This document shows positions 32,332 through 41,844 of a stretch of 64,000 bases of DNA, piece after piece. Source of the stretch: an uncultured Pseudomonadales bacterium (lineage in GTDB: Bacteria; Pseudomonadota; Gammaproteobacteria; Pseudomonadales; Pseudohongiellaceae). A program made the translations under genes and the position numbers. The notes under the pieces were generated by a model, which worked only from the letters and a program-made list of their open reading frames with translations, did not search any database and was not told the origin of the DNA. Each line of letters starts with the position of its first letter. The stretch's first letter is position 1. Where the stretch lies: the NCBI GenBank assembly GCA_943789485.1, contig CALSUH010000005.1, positions 372,001 through 436,000 on the forward strand, read 5' to 3'.

Positions 32332-32489
32332 TTCTGCTCTATCTCTTCTCTATGTAAACTATTGCCTCCAGATTGTTGCCGCTAATTTCTAAATTGCGTA
32401 ATAACTGGTAATCCGAGGAATCCAAACTAGTCTTAGATTATTCCTATGTACATCGGGAAAATTTTTGTTACTTAGTTTGGAGAATGGAA

Positions 32490-32708
32490 ATGAGAGAACT
32501 TACTTTAGATGAGATAGAACAGGTTAGCGGCGGCAGCGGCATCGGTGAATACGCCGCTGATGGTGGAGGGCTCGGATCGCTTGTAGGAACCTTGTCAAGT
32601 GGCACCTTATATGGAGCAGCACGAGGTGGAATGGTCGGGGGGTTACTTGGCGCCTCCTTCGGTGTAGGCCATATGGCCGGGTCGGCTCTTTACGACTGGC
32701 TATCCTAA
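32490..32708 (+). CDS. Double-glycine-leader bacteriocin-like peptide
   Basis: 72 aa from the second ATG (32490), because GGAG lies 7 nt before it but only 1 nt before the first ATG. MRELTLDEIEQVSGG is a textbook double-glycine leader, as in class II bacteriocins and microcins, with cleavage expected after GG. The predicted 57-aa mature peptide is Gly/Ala/Ser-rich with GxxxG-type spacing (GGMVGGLLGASFGVGHMAGS), one hydrophobic helix and no cysteine. It should be exported and trimmed by a C39-peptidase ABC transporter, none of which is in this window. The next gene is a likely immunity partner. Confidence 0.8.
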   Translation: MRELTLDEIEQVSGGSGIGEYAADGGGLGSLVGTLSSGTLYGAARGGMVGGLLGASFGVGHMAGSALYDWLS

Positions 32709-32730
32709 ATCGCCTAGTAGGACGTGAACG

Positions 32731-33018
32731 ATGAACCTAAAAATAGCCAAACGAGCCATAATAGTGATGTGTTCAGTATCGGTAGGCATAGCTATTTTGC
32801 ACACATTTATCGATCAGGACTACATCGGTGCGATGGTCGGTATATCCTCAGCTTCCGCATTTTTTTTCTTGCATCGAAACCCTGAAATGATGATGGCGAA
32901 AAACTGGAGGGAATTTTGTGAGTTTGCTGATCAGTCCCGAGATCAAAAGTATATCTGGGGCTTTCCCGCGTTTCATGCAGTAATGCTGTCAGCGATTTTC
33001 TATATTTGGGTTGTTTAG
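32731..33018 (+). CDS. Small three-helix membrane protein, candidate immunity protein
   Basis: 95 aa, starting 22 bp after the peptide gene with AGGACGTGAACG upstream. Three hydrophobic helices (AIIVMCSVSVGIAILHTFI; GAMVGISSASAFFFL; FPAFHAVMLSAIFYIWVV) separated by a charged loop (RNPEMMMAKNWREFCEFADQ). Small basic/hydrophobic inner-membrane proteins directly after a double-glycine peptide are usually its immunity factor. No homologue recognised, so the function is inferred from context. A terminator follows. Confidence 0.7.
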   Translation: MNLKIAKRAIIVMCSVSVGIAILHTFIDQDYIGAMVGISSASAFFFLHRNPEMMMAKNWREFCEFADQSRDQKYIWGFPAFHAVMLSAIFYIWVV

Positions 33019-33036
33019 GCGTTCTAGAGAGCTGGG

Positions 33037-33063
33037 AACGGTGGCTTCTTCGCTACCGTTTTC
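33037..33063 (+). terminator. Terminator of the peptide/immunity operon
   Basis: AACGGTGGC and GCTACCGTT pair at 8 of 9 positions around a 6-nt loop, followed by TTC. It closes the two-gene unit about 20 bp after the second stop. Confidence 0.65.
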
Positions 33064-33432
33064 TTAGAATTACTTAGGCGTTTCCTGAATTAGGCAATCG
33101 ACAATGAACTCTTTTTAGTCCTCAAATTCGAGCACGAAAATTTTCTTGCATCGATGCCGCAGCGTCGCAGCTTTTCCCTACGTCGCCGTTCATCGACCAG
33201 CCGATAGGGCAGATCGCTGGAGCGAACTGTCCCGGGCCGTTTTCCCAGTATGTATTTTTTGCGAGATCGAATAAGGCAAACTAGCTATACTCATTTTCAG
33301 GAAGGATTCAATCCCCCTACATAGTATGGGCTGAAAATTTGAATAGATTACTAACGTGCAGAATGGGTTTCTCGAGCAGCATGAAATTCGACTTGTTATT
33401 TGTGAGTTTAGTTTACTAGGGGAGGACACGAT
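33064..33432. other. Intergenic stretch without a recognisable gene
   Basis: About 370 bp before the GST gene. The track ORF 33190-33429 (minus) has no RBS, is Ser/Cys-rich and looks random. No repeats or conserved RNA were seen. It should contain the GST promoter. Confidence 0.5.
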
Positions 33433-36340: not shown

Positions 36341-39300
36341 ATGACCCTAAATCACCCAATAGCACGCAACCGATCATCTTTAGTGGCGGCAGGCGCGACT
36401 CTTAGCCCCTGCAATAAAGACATGGGTAGTACGGCTAGTCCCGCAGCAGTGCAGGCCTATGCCGAACTGCACTGCATCTCCAACTTCACATTTCTACGAG
36501 GCGCCTCGTTTCCTGAAGAGCTGGTAGAGCGTGCAGAGGTGCTTGGATACAGCGCCATTGCTATTACCGATGAATGTTCTCTGTCCGGTGTGGTCAGGGC
36601 GCATAGGGTCGCTAAAGAGCGGTGCATCAAATTGATCATCGGCAGCGAATTCGTGTTGCGGGAAACAGCGACTGAATCTGTGCAAGATGAACAGATGATT
36701 CGAAAAGATCTGGATGAATCTCCTGCTGGAAACCGCAATGCATTGAACAACGGAATGCGAATCGTGCTGCTCGCCCTCAACCGGAAAGGTTATGGCGAAC
36801 TCAGTCACCTAATAAGCTGTGCGCGTCTACGAGCGGGTAAGGGTGAGTATCGAATCGATAGCAAACTATTGCAGGAAAAATTCTCTAATGATTGTGCGCT
36901 TTTGTGGATTCCCAATCTTAAGCAGTCAGATGCCTGCATCGAATCACAGGCAGGTTATCTGCGAGAGCTAACTGTAGACAATCTATGGATTGCGGCGGAG
37001 CTTCTTCTTAACGGATACGACCGACTAAAATTAAAGCGACTGCGAAAGCTTGGTAAAAGTTTCGATATTCCTGTGTGCGCAGCAGGCGGCGTCTATATGC
37101 ACGAAGCAGGGCGGCGTATTGTGCAAGATACTTTGACGGCAATACGCTTAGGCCAGCCGTTAGCGAAGATTGGCTTCGCCGCTGAGTCAAATTCGCAGAG
37201 GCACCTACGTGCCATCGAACAACTTAAAAAGCTGTATCCAGCACAGCTTCTCGAAGAGACGCTCATAATCGCTAACCGTTGCGACTTCTCTTTGGATGAG
37301 CTTCGCTACGAATACCCATCCGAGCTTGTGCCGAAAGAGCATACGGCACACTCTTGGTTATGGCAGCTAACTAGAGAAGGAATTAAAAAGCGCTGGCCGC
37401 GGGGAATCTCAGAGAAGAATCAAAAACTTATCGAACATGAGATGAGGTTGATAAAACAGCTCTCCTATGAACATTTCTTTCTGACAGTGCATGAGATTGT
37501 TTGCTTCGCGAACGATCAAAACATTTATTGTCAGGGTCGCGGCTCTGCCGCTAACTCTGCAGTGTGTTATTGCCTTGGGATAACAGAAGTGAGTCCCGAT
37601 CATGCAGAGTTGCTGTTCGAACGCTTTCTCTCCCCCGAGCGCTCTGAGCCACCAGACATTGATGTGGATTTCGAGAATAGCCGCCGCGAAGAAGTGATTC
37701 AGCACATCTATCAGAAGTATGGACGCCATCGTACGGCGATTGCTGCCACAGTCATTACCTATCGCTCTCGTAGTGCCGTGCGTGATGTGGGCAAGGCATT
37801 GGGTTTGGATGATGAGCTTATCAATCGCTTTGCTAAGTCGATCTTCTGGTGGGGAGGCGACTTGCAAGAACAGTTATCGGATTCGGGCATTGACTATACC
37901 GAACAAAAAATCAAGACACTCATAACTGTCTGCCAGTCTCTGATGGGTTTTCCCCGTCATCTATCTCAACACGTAGGAGGCTTTGTTATTAGTCAGGGAG
38001 ACTTGTCGCATCTAGTTCCTATCGAGAATGCAGCCATGACTGATCGAACTATTATTCAATGGGACAAAGACGATTTGAAATCTTTAGGCCTACTTAAAGT
38101 CGATGTGCTCGCATTGGGCATGTTGAGCGCGATTCACAAGGCGATAGATCTGGTGAATAGCTACACCATCGAAGAAGTAGGTATGGATAAAATCTCTTTG
38201 AAGGAGGACTCGAAAGTCTATGACATGATCTGCGAGGCTGACACGTTGGGTGTTTTTCAGATCGAGTCTCGAGCGCAGATGAGCATGTTACCGAGACTAA
38301 AACCTCGCAGTTATTATGACCTAGTTATTCAAATTGCGATCGTTAGGCCTGGGCCTATTCAGGGGGACATGGTGCACCCCTATTTGGAGCGGCGTAAGAA
38401 CCCCAGTAAGATTAAATACGAGAGCGAGGCAGTGAGACAGACGCTGGAACGCACTCTGGGAGTGCCAATTTTTCAAGAGCAGATCATGAAGCTGGCCATG
38501 GTGGCTGCGGGGTTCTCAGCGGGCGAAGCCGATCAGCTACGGCACGCCATGGCAGCGTGGAAGAAGAAAGGGGGCCTCGAGCCGTTTCAAGATAGGTTGG
38601 TTTCCGGCATGAGAGCCCGCGGCTACAGTGAAGAATTCGCTTTGCGCATTTATAGTCAGATTAAAGGCTTCGGTGACTATGGGTTTCCAGAGTCACACTC
38701 GGCTAGCTTTGCATTGCTCGCCTATGTTTCTTCCTGGTTGAAGTGTTATCACCCCGCCGCGTTTTGCTGTGCTCTGCTTAATAGCCAGCCTATGGGTTTC
38801 TACCTGCCTGCACAGTTGATACAGGATGCTATACGTCATGGCGTAGCGGTTCTTTGTGTCAATGTGAATGAAAGCTATTGCGACTCGACTCTTGAGTTTA
38901 ATAGGAAATTGCCCGATAAGCCTGCTCTGCGTTTGGGTTTCTCTTTGGTAAAAGGTTTGTCTGTGCTTGGGGCCGAGTCAATTTGTCTGGCGCGTAGCTC
39001 GGGTCGATTTACATCGGTGCAAGATTTGCTGACAAGAGCCGTATTGAACAAGAAAGACAGTGAAAGTCTTGCGGCGGCTGACGCGTTGAACACTCTCAGT
39101 GGCGATAGACACAGAGCTTTCTGGACTGTAGCTGGGGCCGATAAACCACTGCCTTTCTCAGATTTTCAGGCAGACGGTCAGGTGCTGGAGATAGAGGAAA
39201 GTGGCTTTGGTGTAGATGTGCTTCTGCCCGTTCCGTCTGAAGCTAATAATATAATGGCAGACTACGCTAGCACCGGGCTTACCCTGCGCAGACACCCAGT

Positions 39301-39655
39301 GGCCTTGCTACGCCCGCACCTCGATTTGTATAAGGTAGCGAGCGCCAGTAGCCTCCCGTCGCTACAGAACGAAAGCCGTATCAAGGCGGTGGGTATTGTC
39401 ACCAGTAGACAGCGTCCACAGACCGCGGCAGGGGTTACCTTCTTAACTTTAGAAGACGAGAGCGGTTTTGTTAATGTCGTTGTCTGGCCAAGCCTGGGAG
39501 AAAAACAGCGGCCTATTGTAAGAAGGGCAGTGCTAATAGGTGTAGTAGGTCATGTGCAGAAGAGCGATGGAGTGATTCATCTCATCGCCAGAGAATTGGT
39601 TGACCTTAGCCACTGGCTGGGCGCGATGAATTTGTCATCACGGGATTTTATCTAG
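36341..39655 (+). CDS. dnaE2: Error-prone DNA polymerase III alpha DnaE2 (ImuC)
   Basis: 1104 aa. The PHP domain opens AYAELHCISNFTFLRGASFP, the polymerase active site is PPDIDVDFENSRREEVIQHI (catalytic aspartates intact, about residue 440), GFGDYGFPESHSASFALLAY is the DnaE2-type helix-hairpin block, and the OB domain (GIVTSRQRPQTAAGVTFLTL) is C-terminal. It does translesion synthesis with ImuA and ImuB during the SOS response. The start could also be ATG 36421 (MGSTASPAAVQAYAELHC). Unlike the usual imuA-imuB-dnaE2 operon, it faces imuB convergently with a 25-bp gap and has its own LexA box. Confidence 0.96.
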   Translation: MTLNHPIARNRSSLVAAGATLSPCNKDMGSTASPAAVQAYAELHCISNFTFLRGASFPEELVERAEVLGYSAIAITDECSLSGVVRAHRVAKERCIKLIIGSEFVLRETATESVQDEQMIRKDLDESPAGNRNALNNGMRIVLLALNRKGYGELSHLISCARLRAGKGEYRIDSKLLQEKFSNDCALLWIPNLKQSDACIESQAGYLRELTVDNLWIAAELLLNGYDRLKLKRLRKLGKSFDIPVCAAGGVYMHEAGRRIVQDTLTAIRLGQPLAKIGFAAESNSQRHLRAIEQLKKLYPAQLLEETLIIANRCDFSLDELRYEYPSELVPKEHTAHSWLWQLTREGIKKRWPRGISEKNQKLIEHEMRLIKQLSYEHFFLTVHEIVCFANDQNIYCQGRGSAANSAVCYCLGITEVSPDHAELLFERFLSPERSEPPDIDVDFENSRREEVIQHIYQKYGRHRTAIAATVITYRSRSAVRDVGKALGLDDELINRFAKSIFWWGGDLQEQLSDSGIDYTEQKIKTLITVCQSLMGFPRHLSQHVGGFVISQGDLSHLVPIENAAMTDRTIIQWDKDDLKSLGLLKVDVLALGMLSAIHKAIDLVNSYTIEEVGMDKISLKEDSKVYDMICEADTLGVFQIESRAQMSMLPRLKPRSYYDLVIQIAIVRPGPIQGDMVHPYLERRKNPSKIKYESEAVRQTLERTLGVPIFQEQIMKLAMVAAGFSAGEADQLRHAMAAWKKKGGLEPFQDRLVSGMRARGYSEEFALRIYSQIKGFGDYGFPESHSASFALLAYVSSWLKCYHPAAFCCALLNSQPMGFYLPAQLIQDAIRHGVAVLCVNVNESYCDSTLEFNRKLPDKPALRLGFSLVKGLSVLGAESICLARSSGRFTSVQDLLTRAVLNKKDSESLAAADALNTLSGDRHRAFWTVAGADKPLPFSDFQADGQVLEIEESGFGVDVLLPVPSEANNIMADYASTGLTLRRHPVALLRPHLDLYKVASASSLPSLQNESRIKAVGIVTSRQRPQTAAGVTFLTLEDESGFVNVVVWPSLGEKQRPIVRRAVLIGVVGHVQKSDGVIHLIARELVDLSHWLGAMNLSSRDFI

Positions 39656-39680
39656 TCTTTTCTGATAAAACCTAATTACC

Positions 39681-41051
39681 CTATGCAAAGAAACCATGTA
39701 GGTACCAATTTCTTTTGCCGTTTTTTTCATGGTATATCCAGAGCCTGCTGCCGTTATGTTCCCTAGCAACATAATAATCTCGACACACATCGATTCCTGA
39801 CCACCAATGCGTCTCTATCCGTTCGGGCCCACTTACGATAGCGATAGGTTTGCGATAGAAAAGCCTGCCCTTGTTGATGTTGAGTTGCTTAGGCTCTTGC
39901 AGCAACCACAGAGGCCTGGGATTTGCAGAAACTTCTATAGGCTTCGCTATCCTGCCTCTTCGATTCGGTTTCTCTTTGTAGTTAAGCTGCAAGCTCGCAT
40001 ATTCCGGACAATGCTGAGTCGCGTTACTAACACTTTTTACATGGCTGTCGCCAAATCGCGCCTGCAACTGTTCTATAAATTGAATAAGGTTGCTGTCACT
40101 ATAAGATGCCGAACCTGATGGCTCATTTTTCAGCAAAGAATCGCTCTTAGCAAAGAAGGCATCAAATTCTTTGACTTCAATTTTGACGGCGACTACCGGA
40201 GCTGGAATAGACAATTTGTCGAAATGAGTCTCCAACAATAAGGTGAGATGTTGTTGTGAACGACTTGCCATTCGTAAGCCGATATTAATTTCGGTGCTGT
40301 CACGTTTCTCATGACGCAAGAACAAAACTAGGCTGCTAGTGCTAAGGTCTCGCCGCCGTAAGAAGTCGCAAAGCTGCGCTAATAACTCATCGGCAATCGG
40401 CAATAGCTGATTTAGGTTTTCAAGTTCGTAAGGTAGGTCATAGGACGCAGCGAATGCTGGCGGAGGAATATAATTGAGCGTCGGCTCGGCTACCTTTCCT
40501 AGCGCCTTATTTAGTTGATTAACAAAGTTGCTGCCAAAGCGTTTACATAATCCATCACTAGGTAAGCGCCAGATATCCCTTAAATGACGAATTCCCATAT
40601 TAAGAAGCCGCCGTCGTTGTTCCTTGTTTAGGTCTAGTACATCGGTTGAGAGTTGGCCTAATGCCGAGCGTAAGTTTTCTGGCCGATAGACCAGCGCATT
40701 GTGCCCGGACCTGGCTAGCAATAAGCTGCCGCTGACAGTGGGGCTGGCTGCATAAAAGAAACCATCTGCTAAATCCCACTGCTGTAATTGTTCTCCTACG
40801 AGTTTCTGCAACTTTTGATGAATAACATCGATGCCAGCAAAATATTTTAAACTACTGCGTACTTCGCAGATTAATGCTTGGGGATGAAAGCTTACTGTAG
40901 AGCTAACGCTTTGCATGTGGCCGGCTAATTGATCGAGATATTTCTTCTGTAATGCTGAGTTTAGTTCTCTAAGCTGAGGAAGATAGAGTGCATACCATAG
41001 GCTATTAGATTTGCTACGCTGTGCGACGGATTTGACGCGCGCCTCATCCAT
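39681..41051 (-). CDS. imuB: ImuB, inactive Y-family polymerase-like mutasome protein
   Basis: 456 aa from ATG 41051. SLWYALYLPQLRELNSALQ is the ImuB/Y-family N-terminus, IRHLRDIWRLPSDGLCKRFG is the HhH region, and the C-terminus NGSRLWIYHEKNGKRNWYLHGFFA is the conserved ImuB tail. ImuB lacks polymerase catalysis and links DnaE2 to the beta clamp. The reading frame is open and coding-like for about 125 bp upstream (LPLPYVAPESGPQVIQFPAR) but has no ATG, GTG or TTG start there, so the true N-terminus is uncertain. imuA ends 145 bp upstream. Confidence 0.92.
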   Translation of the reverse strand: MDEARVKSVAQRSKSNSLWYALYLPQLRELNSALQKKYLDQLAGHMQSVSSTVSFHPQALICEVRSSLKYFAGIDVIHQKLQKLVGEQLQQWDLADGFFYAASPTVSGSLLLARSGHNALVYRPENLRSALGQLSTDVLDLNKEQRRRLLNMGIRHLRDIWRLPSDGLCKRFGSNFVNQLNKALGKVAEPTLNYIPPPAFAASYDLPYELENLNQLLPIADELLAQLCDFLRRRDLSTSSLVLFLRHEKRDSTEINIGLRMASRSQQHLTLLLETHFDKLSIPAPVVAVKIEVKEFDAFFAKSDSLLKNEPSGSASYSDSNLIQFIEQLQARFGDSHVKSVSNATQHCPEYASLQLNYKEKPNRRGRIAKPIEVSANPRPLWLLQEPKQLNINKGRLFYRKPIAIVSGPERIETHWWSGIDVCRDYYVAREHNGSRLWIYHEKNGKRNWYLHGFFA

Positions 41052-41196
41052 CGCAGCTTTAGAGGGTCTCTGCTTTGCTGAGTCTTTAGCGCGTGCCGGA
41101 AATTGGATAACCTGAGGGCCAGATTCAGGCGCAACATAGGGCAGAGGGAGCTGTGCCTCACTGTCTGGAATCTTTCAAGGCGTTGCTCCAGAAAGG

Positions 41197-41844
41197 TCAG
41201 GCTTGTTGGTAGAGGTTAATAGTCGCGCTTCGTGAGCGGAAATCCCCTCTAGCCTTAATGACAGTCACTTCAGACTCATTAAAACCCGCATTTTCGGAGT
41301 AAGAATCCTCTATTTTTAAACGTACTGGAGATGGTGAGTGCTCACTATCATGGTGTTTGAACAATACCCCTAGCGTGTCTCCAGTGTTTGCTGCCAGCTG
41401 TAGGCGGCGCAATACTTTGGTCGGTAGCCAGTTCTGCCAGGCTAATACCAGGCCGCAGTTTTCAGTCTGCAGAGCCTTTTCCATACTCCACAAAGCGTCC
41501 TTACAAGAAGTGTCCAGTTTGACCACTAATACCTGATCGGTATTAATGCCGGCTTGTACCAAGGCAGGAGCATAAAGCAAATAAGGGGGCGATATCCAAA
41601 GGATCCATTTTCCTTGTTCAACGATTGAACGCATGAGCGGAATTAAAAGCTGTAATTCGCCCATGCCCCAATGAGGTGTGATGACCTCCATTAGCCCCCT
41701 CTCTGGCCACCCGCGCCCAGGAAGGATGGCATCCAGTTGTGGATAACCAGTGCTTCGACCCTGCACACCCTGACCGGCCATATCACAACCGCGCCATAGA
41801 TTTGGATGGCCTTGTAGTAGCTCATCTATAGCGCTAGAGCTCAC
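41197..41844 (-). CDS. imuA: ImuA, RecA-like SOS mutasome accessory protein
   Basis: 215 aa. DELLQGHPNLWRG, then STGYPQLDAILPGRGWPERG, LMEVITPHWGMGELQLLIPL and WILWISPPYLLYAPALVQAG follow the RecA/SulA-like ImuA fold, with a degenerate nucleotide-binding site. It is needed with ImuB and DnaE2 for damage-induced mutagenesis. The start is a GTG (CATGATGTGAGC). No in-frame ATG lies upstream. A LexA box is about 105 bp before it. Confidence 0.9.
   Translation of the reverse strand: MSSSAIDELLQGHPNLWRGCDMAGQGVQGRSTGYPQLDAILPGRGWPERGLMEVITPHWGMGELQLLIPLMRSIVEQGKWILWISPPYLLYAPALVQAGINTDQVLVVKLDTSCKDALWSMEKALQTENCGLVLAWQNWLPTKVLRRLQLAANTGDTLGVLFKHHDSEHSPSPVRLKIEDSYSENAGFNESEVTVIKARGDFRSRSATINLYQQA

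Follow-up and report, generated by a model that had tools for sequence, protein, structure and literature searches.

The class II microcins verified in one survey came from two enterobacterial species (PMC9746304), and four of class IIb, E492, H47, M and I47, share a 15-aa leader ending in GG or GA, fewer than two cysteines, a final serine, an adjacent small membrane immunity gene, a C39 transporter with its membrane fusion protein, and the use of one modification and export set by several cargoes (PMC11634061, PMC10233263). A terminal serine that is under selection in otherwise unlike peptides is the hallmark of that class, in which it carries a siderophore (PMC10233263, PMC11634061). The same features, with a candidate in the place of the immunity gene, are found for a pair of small genes in the genome of an uncultured bacterium of the family Pseudohongiellaceae (assembly GCA_943789485.1), within a stretch of 64,000 nucleotides of contig CALSUH010000005.1 (positions 372,001 to 436,000, hereafter the window). 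Here, however, the C-terminus of the peptide is not serine-rich, the cassettes lie far from the operon that would serve them, and that operon has an acyl carrier protein (ACP), an LpxL-like acyltransferase and a RAYT-like protein. The reading that we favor, and regard as rather probable, takes the two genes for a class II microcin-like cassette of toxin and immunity protein, in which the distant operon would process and export the peptide and acylate it at the terminal serine.

Two further systems bear comparison. The McbC/McbI bacteriocin of Moraxella catarrhalis likewise has a double-glycine peptide, with a small immunity gene after it, an ABC transporter and a membrane fusion protein; unlike the genes described here, those four are in a single operon, and no acyl genes are named in the accessible part of the report on them (PMC2761928). 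With microcin V (class IIa, MccV) the likeness is partial, in that the leader and glycine-rich first half of our peptide align to positions 1-51 of the 104 in its profile, but the match is below the cut-off, the C-terminal half of the profile has no counterpart, and our peptide has a serine at its end.

The Peptide and Its Partner

The peptide gene has two in-frame ATG codons, at 32484 (giving 74 aa) and 32490 (giving 72 aa), and we place the start at the second because the GGAG ahead of it is well spaced (7 nt, as against merely 1 nt for the first) and because most homologues have MREL as their start and no ATG ahead of it. An earlier note on this DNA, made from the letters and a list of open reading frames (ORFs), had described a 72-aa ORF with a double-glycine leader, a well-spaced ribosome-binding site and a Gly/Ala-rich mature part free of cysteine, and all of this stands. 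The mature peptide has a mass of 5.35 kDa and an acidic isoelectric point (pI) of 4.5, contains neither cysteine nor lysine, and ends in ALYDWLS. Its AlphaFold2 model has helices at precursor residues 18-37 and 40-71, with a predicted local distance difference test score (pLDDT) of about 90 across most of the core. The gene for the 95-aa protein follows after a gap of 22 bp, where the earlier note had placed a three-helix membrane protein, and the model of the product does have three long helices (3-27, 31-49 and 79-94; mean pLDDT 75). No resemblance to solved structures was found for either model (best Foldseek E 3.2 for the peptide and 2.3 for the partner), sequence-profile searches returned no PDB relatives of either protein, and searches for the peptide in plasmids and for the partner in viral contigs found neither.

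The conserved pair for which the earlier note had proposed a database search was found, the two genes being adjacent in 16 genomes of the genus and at 13 loci of GTDB genomes, in part the same as those 16; the peptide was detected at 12 of the 13, the exception being L116, where the contig ends within the gene. The nearest named records for these loci are bins from marine metagenomes that carry the labels Gammaproteobacteria, SAR86 cluster or Pseudohongiella sp. Peptide homologues within the genus reach down to 43% identity, and in some distant relatives the pair is placed in different neighborhoods. Two outcomes that the earlier note had named as fatal to its proposal, a leader not conserved in homologues and a 95-aa gene occurring widely without the peptide, were not seen: MRELT, E8, V12 and G14 are invariant or nearly so in the 16 homologues, and the partner was seen only beside the peptide in the genus genomes and GTDB loci. 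In both genes the nonsynonymous divergence (dN) is well below the synonymous (dS), with leader dN close to 0 and the core changing faster. That the peptide is a chance Gly-rich ORF, short and of low complexity, is refuted by the conservation across 16 genomes, the purifying selection and the fixed neighbor, and we give the idea virtually no weight.

At eight loci that share the site of the window (L092-L096, L106, L118 and L119), identity to the window is 64-75% for the peptide and 66-80% for the partner, while it is 92-98% for the threonine-synthase-like neighbor and 81-92% for the GST, where present. By these identities the pair has diverged more quickly than the genes around it, which is what one would expect if it encodes a toxin and its immunity protein. 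In one genome (G016, L092:162-1423), the pair is duplicated in tandem. Peptide and partner divergence are correlated (r 0.71 over 55 pairs, a value that does not account for the tree), and this bears on whether the peptide might act on the producing population itself, through autolysis or programmed death tuned by the partner, in the manner of the Nap peptides of Neisseria. The Nap peptides have a double-glycine leader, are accompanied by a C39 peptidase and by a gene of putative immunity function, and do not kill competitors (PMC11798529), but they are cationic and have other export genes, whereas the core here is acidic and its partner co-diverges with it, so that we judge such self-directed action very unlikely. 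We consider that the peptide is probably a toxin and the 95-aa protein its immunity partner.

Cassettes of the same kind, for which the earlier note had no mention, are numerous in relatives. For 43 of 54 peptides, a short ORF containing two or more hydrophobic segments starts no more than 260 nt downstream, compared with 18 of 684 random points, and the partner families differ between peptide core types; linked membrane ORFs that change with the core fit dedicated immunity proteins. As many as six leader-peptide cassettes were found in one genome. MREL cassettes in which the Gly-rich core and the partner family differ from those of the window include L107, L108, L110, L111, L018, L021, L022, L150 and L159, among others. 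Double-glycine leaders are established as serving pheromones as well (Dirix et al. 2004), and the peptide could in principle be a secreted signal sensed by the same species, with the partner as its membrane receptor or regulator. We think this distinctly improbable, given that the cores, of 35 to 85 aa, resemble Gly-zippers and are highly variable, that the partners are short membrane proteins, that a single genome may hold up to six different cassettes, and that no sensor kinase or regulator was seen adjacent to them.

The Export Operon

No C39 gene is present in the window, from which the earlier note had supposed that the export machinery would be elsewhere, and it is: the host genome (83.8% complete) has a single Peptidase_C39 match, at contig position 139716-140099, within an ABC transporter gene on the same contig, 232 kb upstream of the start of the window at 372001. 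The genome thus passes the test that the earlier note had set of containing such a transporter, and the catalytic Cys-His-Asp triad is intact. The transporter gene is in a five-gene operon whose order is common to most of the other genomes examined, and TolC-family (OEP/TolC) proteins are also present in the genome. The DSL attachment motif of the ACP is kept in 14 of 14 cases, and the H-x-G block of the LpxL-like protein is invariant. In a search of 400 genomes spread over the order, no relatives of the LpxL-like protein were found outside the family at E 1e-20. Neither the modification genes of this operon nor the final serine of the peptide had figured in the earlier note.

The fifth protein of the operon, of 226 aa, can be aligned along most of its length with genuine RAYTs (TnpA-REP) of the same genome, which its profile also picks up with far lower scores. 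The RAYT motifs, HUH and Y---NP, are defined in PMC6006769. The HUH histidines are gone in 17 of 17 operon proteins (e.g., MEKELFLI in place of MTNHVHLL) but present in four RAYTs of the same genome, and Y---NP is not retained in the operon proteins either. By alignment, the fifth protein is a RAYT derivative without the catalytic histidines, and the loss of the histidines in all 17 rules out a true RAYT transposase. This HUH-less derivative is a fixed last gene of the peptide export operon in 28 of the 61 genus genomes.

Those 61 genomes also formed the co-occurrence set, in which peptides were scored by a leader profile at E < 1e-3 (with the addition of G038, whose peptide is cut at a contig end) and the operon by a RAYT-like marker above 220 bits. 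MREL-leader peptides were found in 27 of 28 genomes with the operon and 5 of 33 without it (Fisher p 3e-11), and among genomes at least 90% complete in 20 of 20 with and 3 of 15 without, the p-values ignoring shared ancestry. A profile search for further leader peptides in the host genome gave one weak match (E 0.23), inside a 462-aa frame, which we take as chance. We hold it very probable that the peptide is processed by the C39 domain and exported.

A sister genus has an operon in the order AMP-ligase, ACP, LpxL-like, HlyD and C39 ABC transporter (L182-L186), and in two of its genomes a 50-aa MREL peptide ending in serine is encoded directly behind the C39 gene. The best matches of the ligase are fatty-acyl-AMP ligases. 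A chain of ligase, carrier and LpxL-type transferase is also what AlmEFG provides for the glycinylation of lipid A in Vibrio; the operon here has the carrier protein and the LpxL-like transferase, with a counterpart of the ligase in the sister genus, but the chain is tied to a peptide exporter and that ligase is closest to fatty-acyl-AMP ligases. The presence of ligase, carrier and acyltransferase beside a peptide exporter suggests that the exported peptide may be fatty-acylated.

The Terminal Serine

Among 55 distinct MREL-leader peptides read from the fetched loci, serine is the last residue in 49 (31 of 36 after clustering), although it makes up 5.9% of the remaining core residues. The residue is encoded by all six serine codons (TCC 19, TCT 12, TCG 9, TCA 4, AGT 3 and AGC 2), and all three stop codons occur after it. 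In the sister genus, seven of eight distinct peptides end in serine, two of them being within the 55. Serine is the last residue in none of eight double-glycine peptides from other C39 systems or other families (Fisher p 8e-7 for 49 of 55 versus 0 of 8), their final residues being Y, P, F, R, P, E, K and R. Three of these eight are in two genomes (G024 and G056) that also hold the operon.

It is with respect to this serine that the ACP and the LpxL-like enzyme can be read in two ways. In one, the peptide would be an unmodified class II microcin, the two enzymes would act on lipids of the producer in the manner of AlmFG, e.g., for self-protection, and the serine would have its role in export, stability or receptor recognition. 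LpxL-like enzymes classically modify lipid A (Pfam Lip_A_acyltrans), and an argument for a peptide substrate from a soluble as opposed to a membrane-bound acyltransferase was dropped when hydropathy failed to separate the operon enzyme from a housekeeping LpxL. Action on producer lipids leaves unexplained, however, why serine is kept at the end of unlike peptides here and not in the other C39 substrates, and we regard it as fairly unlikely. The other reading, and the one we prefer, is acylation of the peptide itself. In that case, the C39 domain would cleave after the GG, the ACP and the LpxL-like enzyme would place an acyl group, likeliest an ACP-borne fatty acid, on the hydroxyl of the C-terminal serine, and the peptide would exit via an ABC-HlyD-TolC channel. 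Its Gly-zipper helical hairpin would then insert into the inner membrane of related competitors, and the 95-aa protein would shield the producer by binding in its inner membrane either the peptide or the target of the peptide.

Several observations weigh against the favored reading as a whole. Three genomes that carry the pair have no detected C39 transporter (G003, G022 and G058, two of them about 85% complete), and in the sister genus one genome (G170) with a serine-ending peptide has no detected LpxL-like gene. In two relatives (G034 at L114, and L119:10001-10216) the partner has an in-frame stop and the peptide is intact. The peptide scores below the cut-off with both Pfam MccV (20.2 bits, E 9e-4, cut-off 27) and Bacteriocin_IIc (PF10439; 17.5 bits, E 4e-3, cut-off 27.1). 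Lastly, the case for an acyl-type modification of the final serine is drawn entirely from gene content and the conserved serine, and we put it at a little under an even chance.

Classification

The precursor is below 10 kDa and has an N-terminal leader ending in GG; the genome encodes a C39 peptidase ABC transporter with its triad, an HlyD protein adjoining the transporter, and OEP/TolC proteins; and the candidate immunity protein, with its three predicted helices, is encoded 22 bp downstream. By its sequence features, then, the pair is a microcin-like system with a gene set of its own and the structural attributes of class II microcins, and the earlier proposal of a bacteriocin-like peptide with a candidate immunity gene is supported as an inference by the C39 gene, the leader and the partner. 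The model of the microcin E492 group scored 13.1 bits against a cut-off of 50. Since microcin families are known to be highly divergent, this score and that with MccV lower the claim that the peptide is a member of a known family and not the claim that it would work like one. A two-peptide bacteriocin of the Gram-positive kind (PF10439) was rejected, there being a single peptide and a match below the cut-off.

With class IIb the peptide shares the final serine, fewer than two cysteines (none) and a membrane ORF closer than 200 bp, but its last ten residues, AGSALYDWLS, hold one further serine (the family mean is 0.75), and because the C-terminus is not serine-rich, we have not filed it there. 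A search for a HlyC-type enzyme (MceI) with PF02794 gave 0 matches in the host genome, as it did in the control genomes. For no microcin system did our searches of the open-licence literature turn up an ACP or an LpxL-like acyltransferase.

Features of the Locus

Coordinates are collected in Table 1. The terminator that had been proposed to close the pair is accepted in part: the hairpin exists, but its tail does not pass the terminator scan. Elsewhere in the window, at 36341-41844, a DnaE-type polymerase ORF (36341-39655) and two ORFs on the opposite strand to it (39681-41051 and 41197-41844) resemble by eye an ImuA/ImuB/DnaE2 mutagenesis cassette.

Table 1. Features of the peptide-partner pair (window positions) and of the export operon (positions in locus L002).
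Feature	Position	Strand	Basis
Ribosome-binding site GGAG	32479..32482	+	Sequence; 7 nt before ATG 32490
Precursor peptide, 72 aa, class II microcin-like	32490..32708	+	ORF, homologues, leader conservation, dN/dS
Double-glycine leader, 15 aa, MRELTLDEIEQVSGG	32490..32534	+	Conserved in 16 homologues; leader dN near 0
Mature peptide, 57 aa, Gly/Ala-rich, predicted helical hairpin	32535..32705	+	AlphaFold2, composition
C-terminal serine codon TCC, candidate modification site	32703..32705	+	Ser last in 49/55 distinct wider-family peptides
95-aa three-helix membrane protein, candidate immunity protein	32731..33018	+	Homologues, neighborhood, AlphaFold2
Hairpin AACGGTGGC..GCTACCGTT with T-rich tail, possible weak terminator	33037..33068	+	Folding z -2.1; fails terminator scan
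LpxL-like acyltransferase	L002:10702-11637	-	Export operon; Pfam Lip_A_acyltrans
Acyl carrier protein (ACP)	L002:10400-10648	-	Export operon
HlyD membrane fusion protein	L002:9127-10425	-	Export operon
C39 ABC transporter	L002:7025-9130	-	Export operon
226-aa RAYT-derived protein	L002:6312-6992	-	Last gene of export operon

Significance

To our knowledge, the sole conjugation of verified class II microcins is that of a siderophore to the C-terminal serine in class IIb. It is a bolder and more doubtful proposal, though one we think worth stating, that a new kind of microcin may exist across a marine gammaproteobacterial family, in which ribosomal double-glycine peptides would receive a lipid on a conserved C-terminal serine from a dedicated ACP and LpxL-like enzyme, with a catalytically dead RAYT as accessory or adaptor, and many dispersed toxin-immunity cassettes would depend on one central operon. 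If this is true, the fixed presence of a dead transposase in the operon would be a rare recruitment of a RAYT outside DNA processing, and conjugation at the C-terminal serine would be a general delivery strategy with exchangeable chemistry, practiced across a marine family with a fatty-acid-type gene set.
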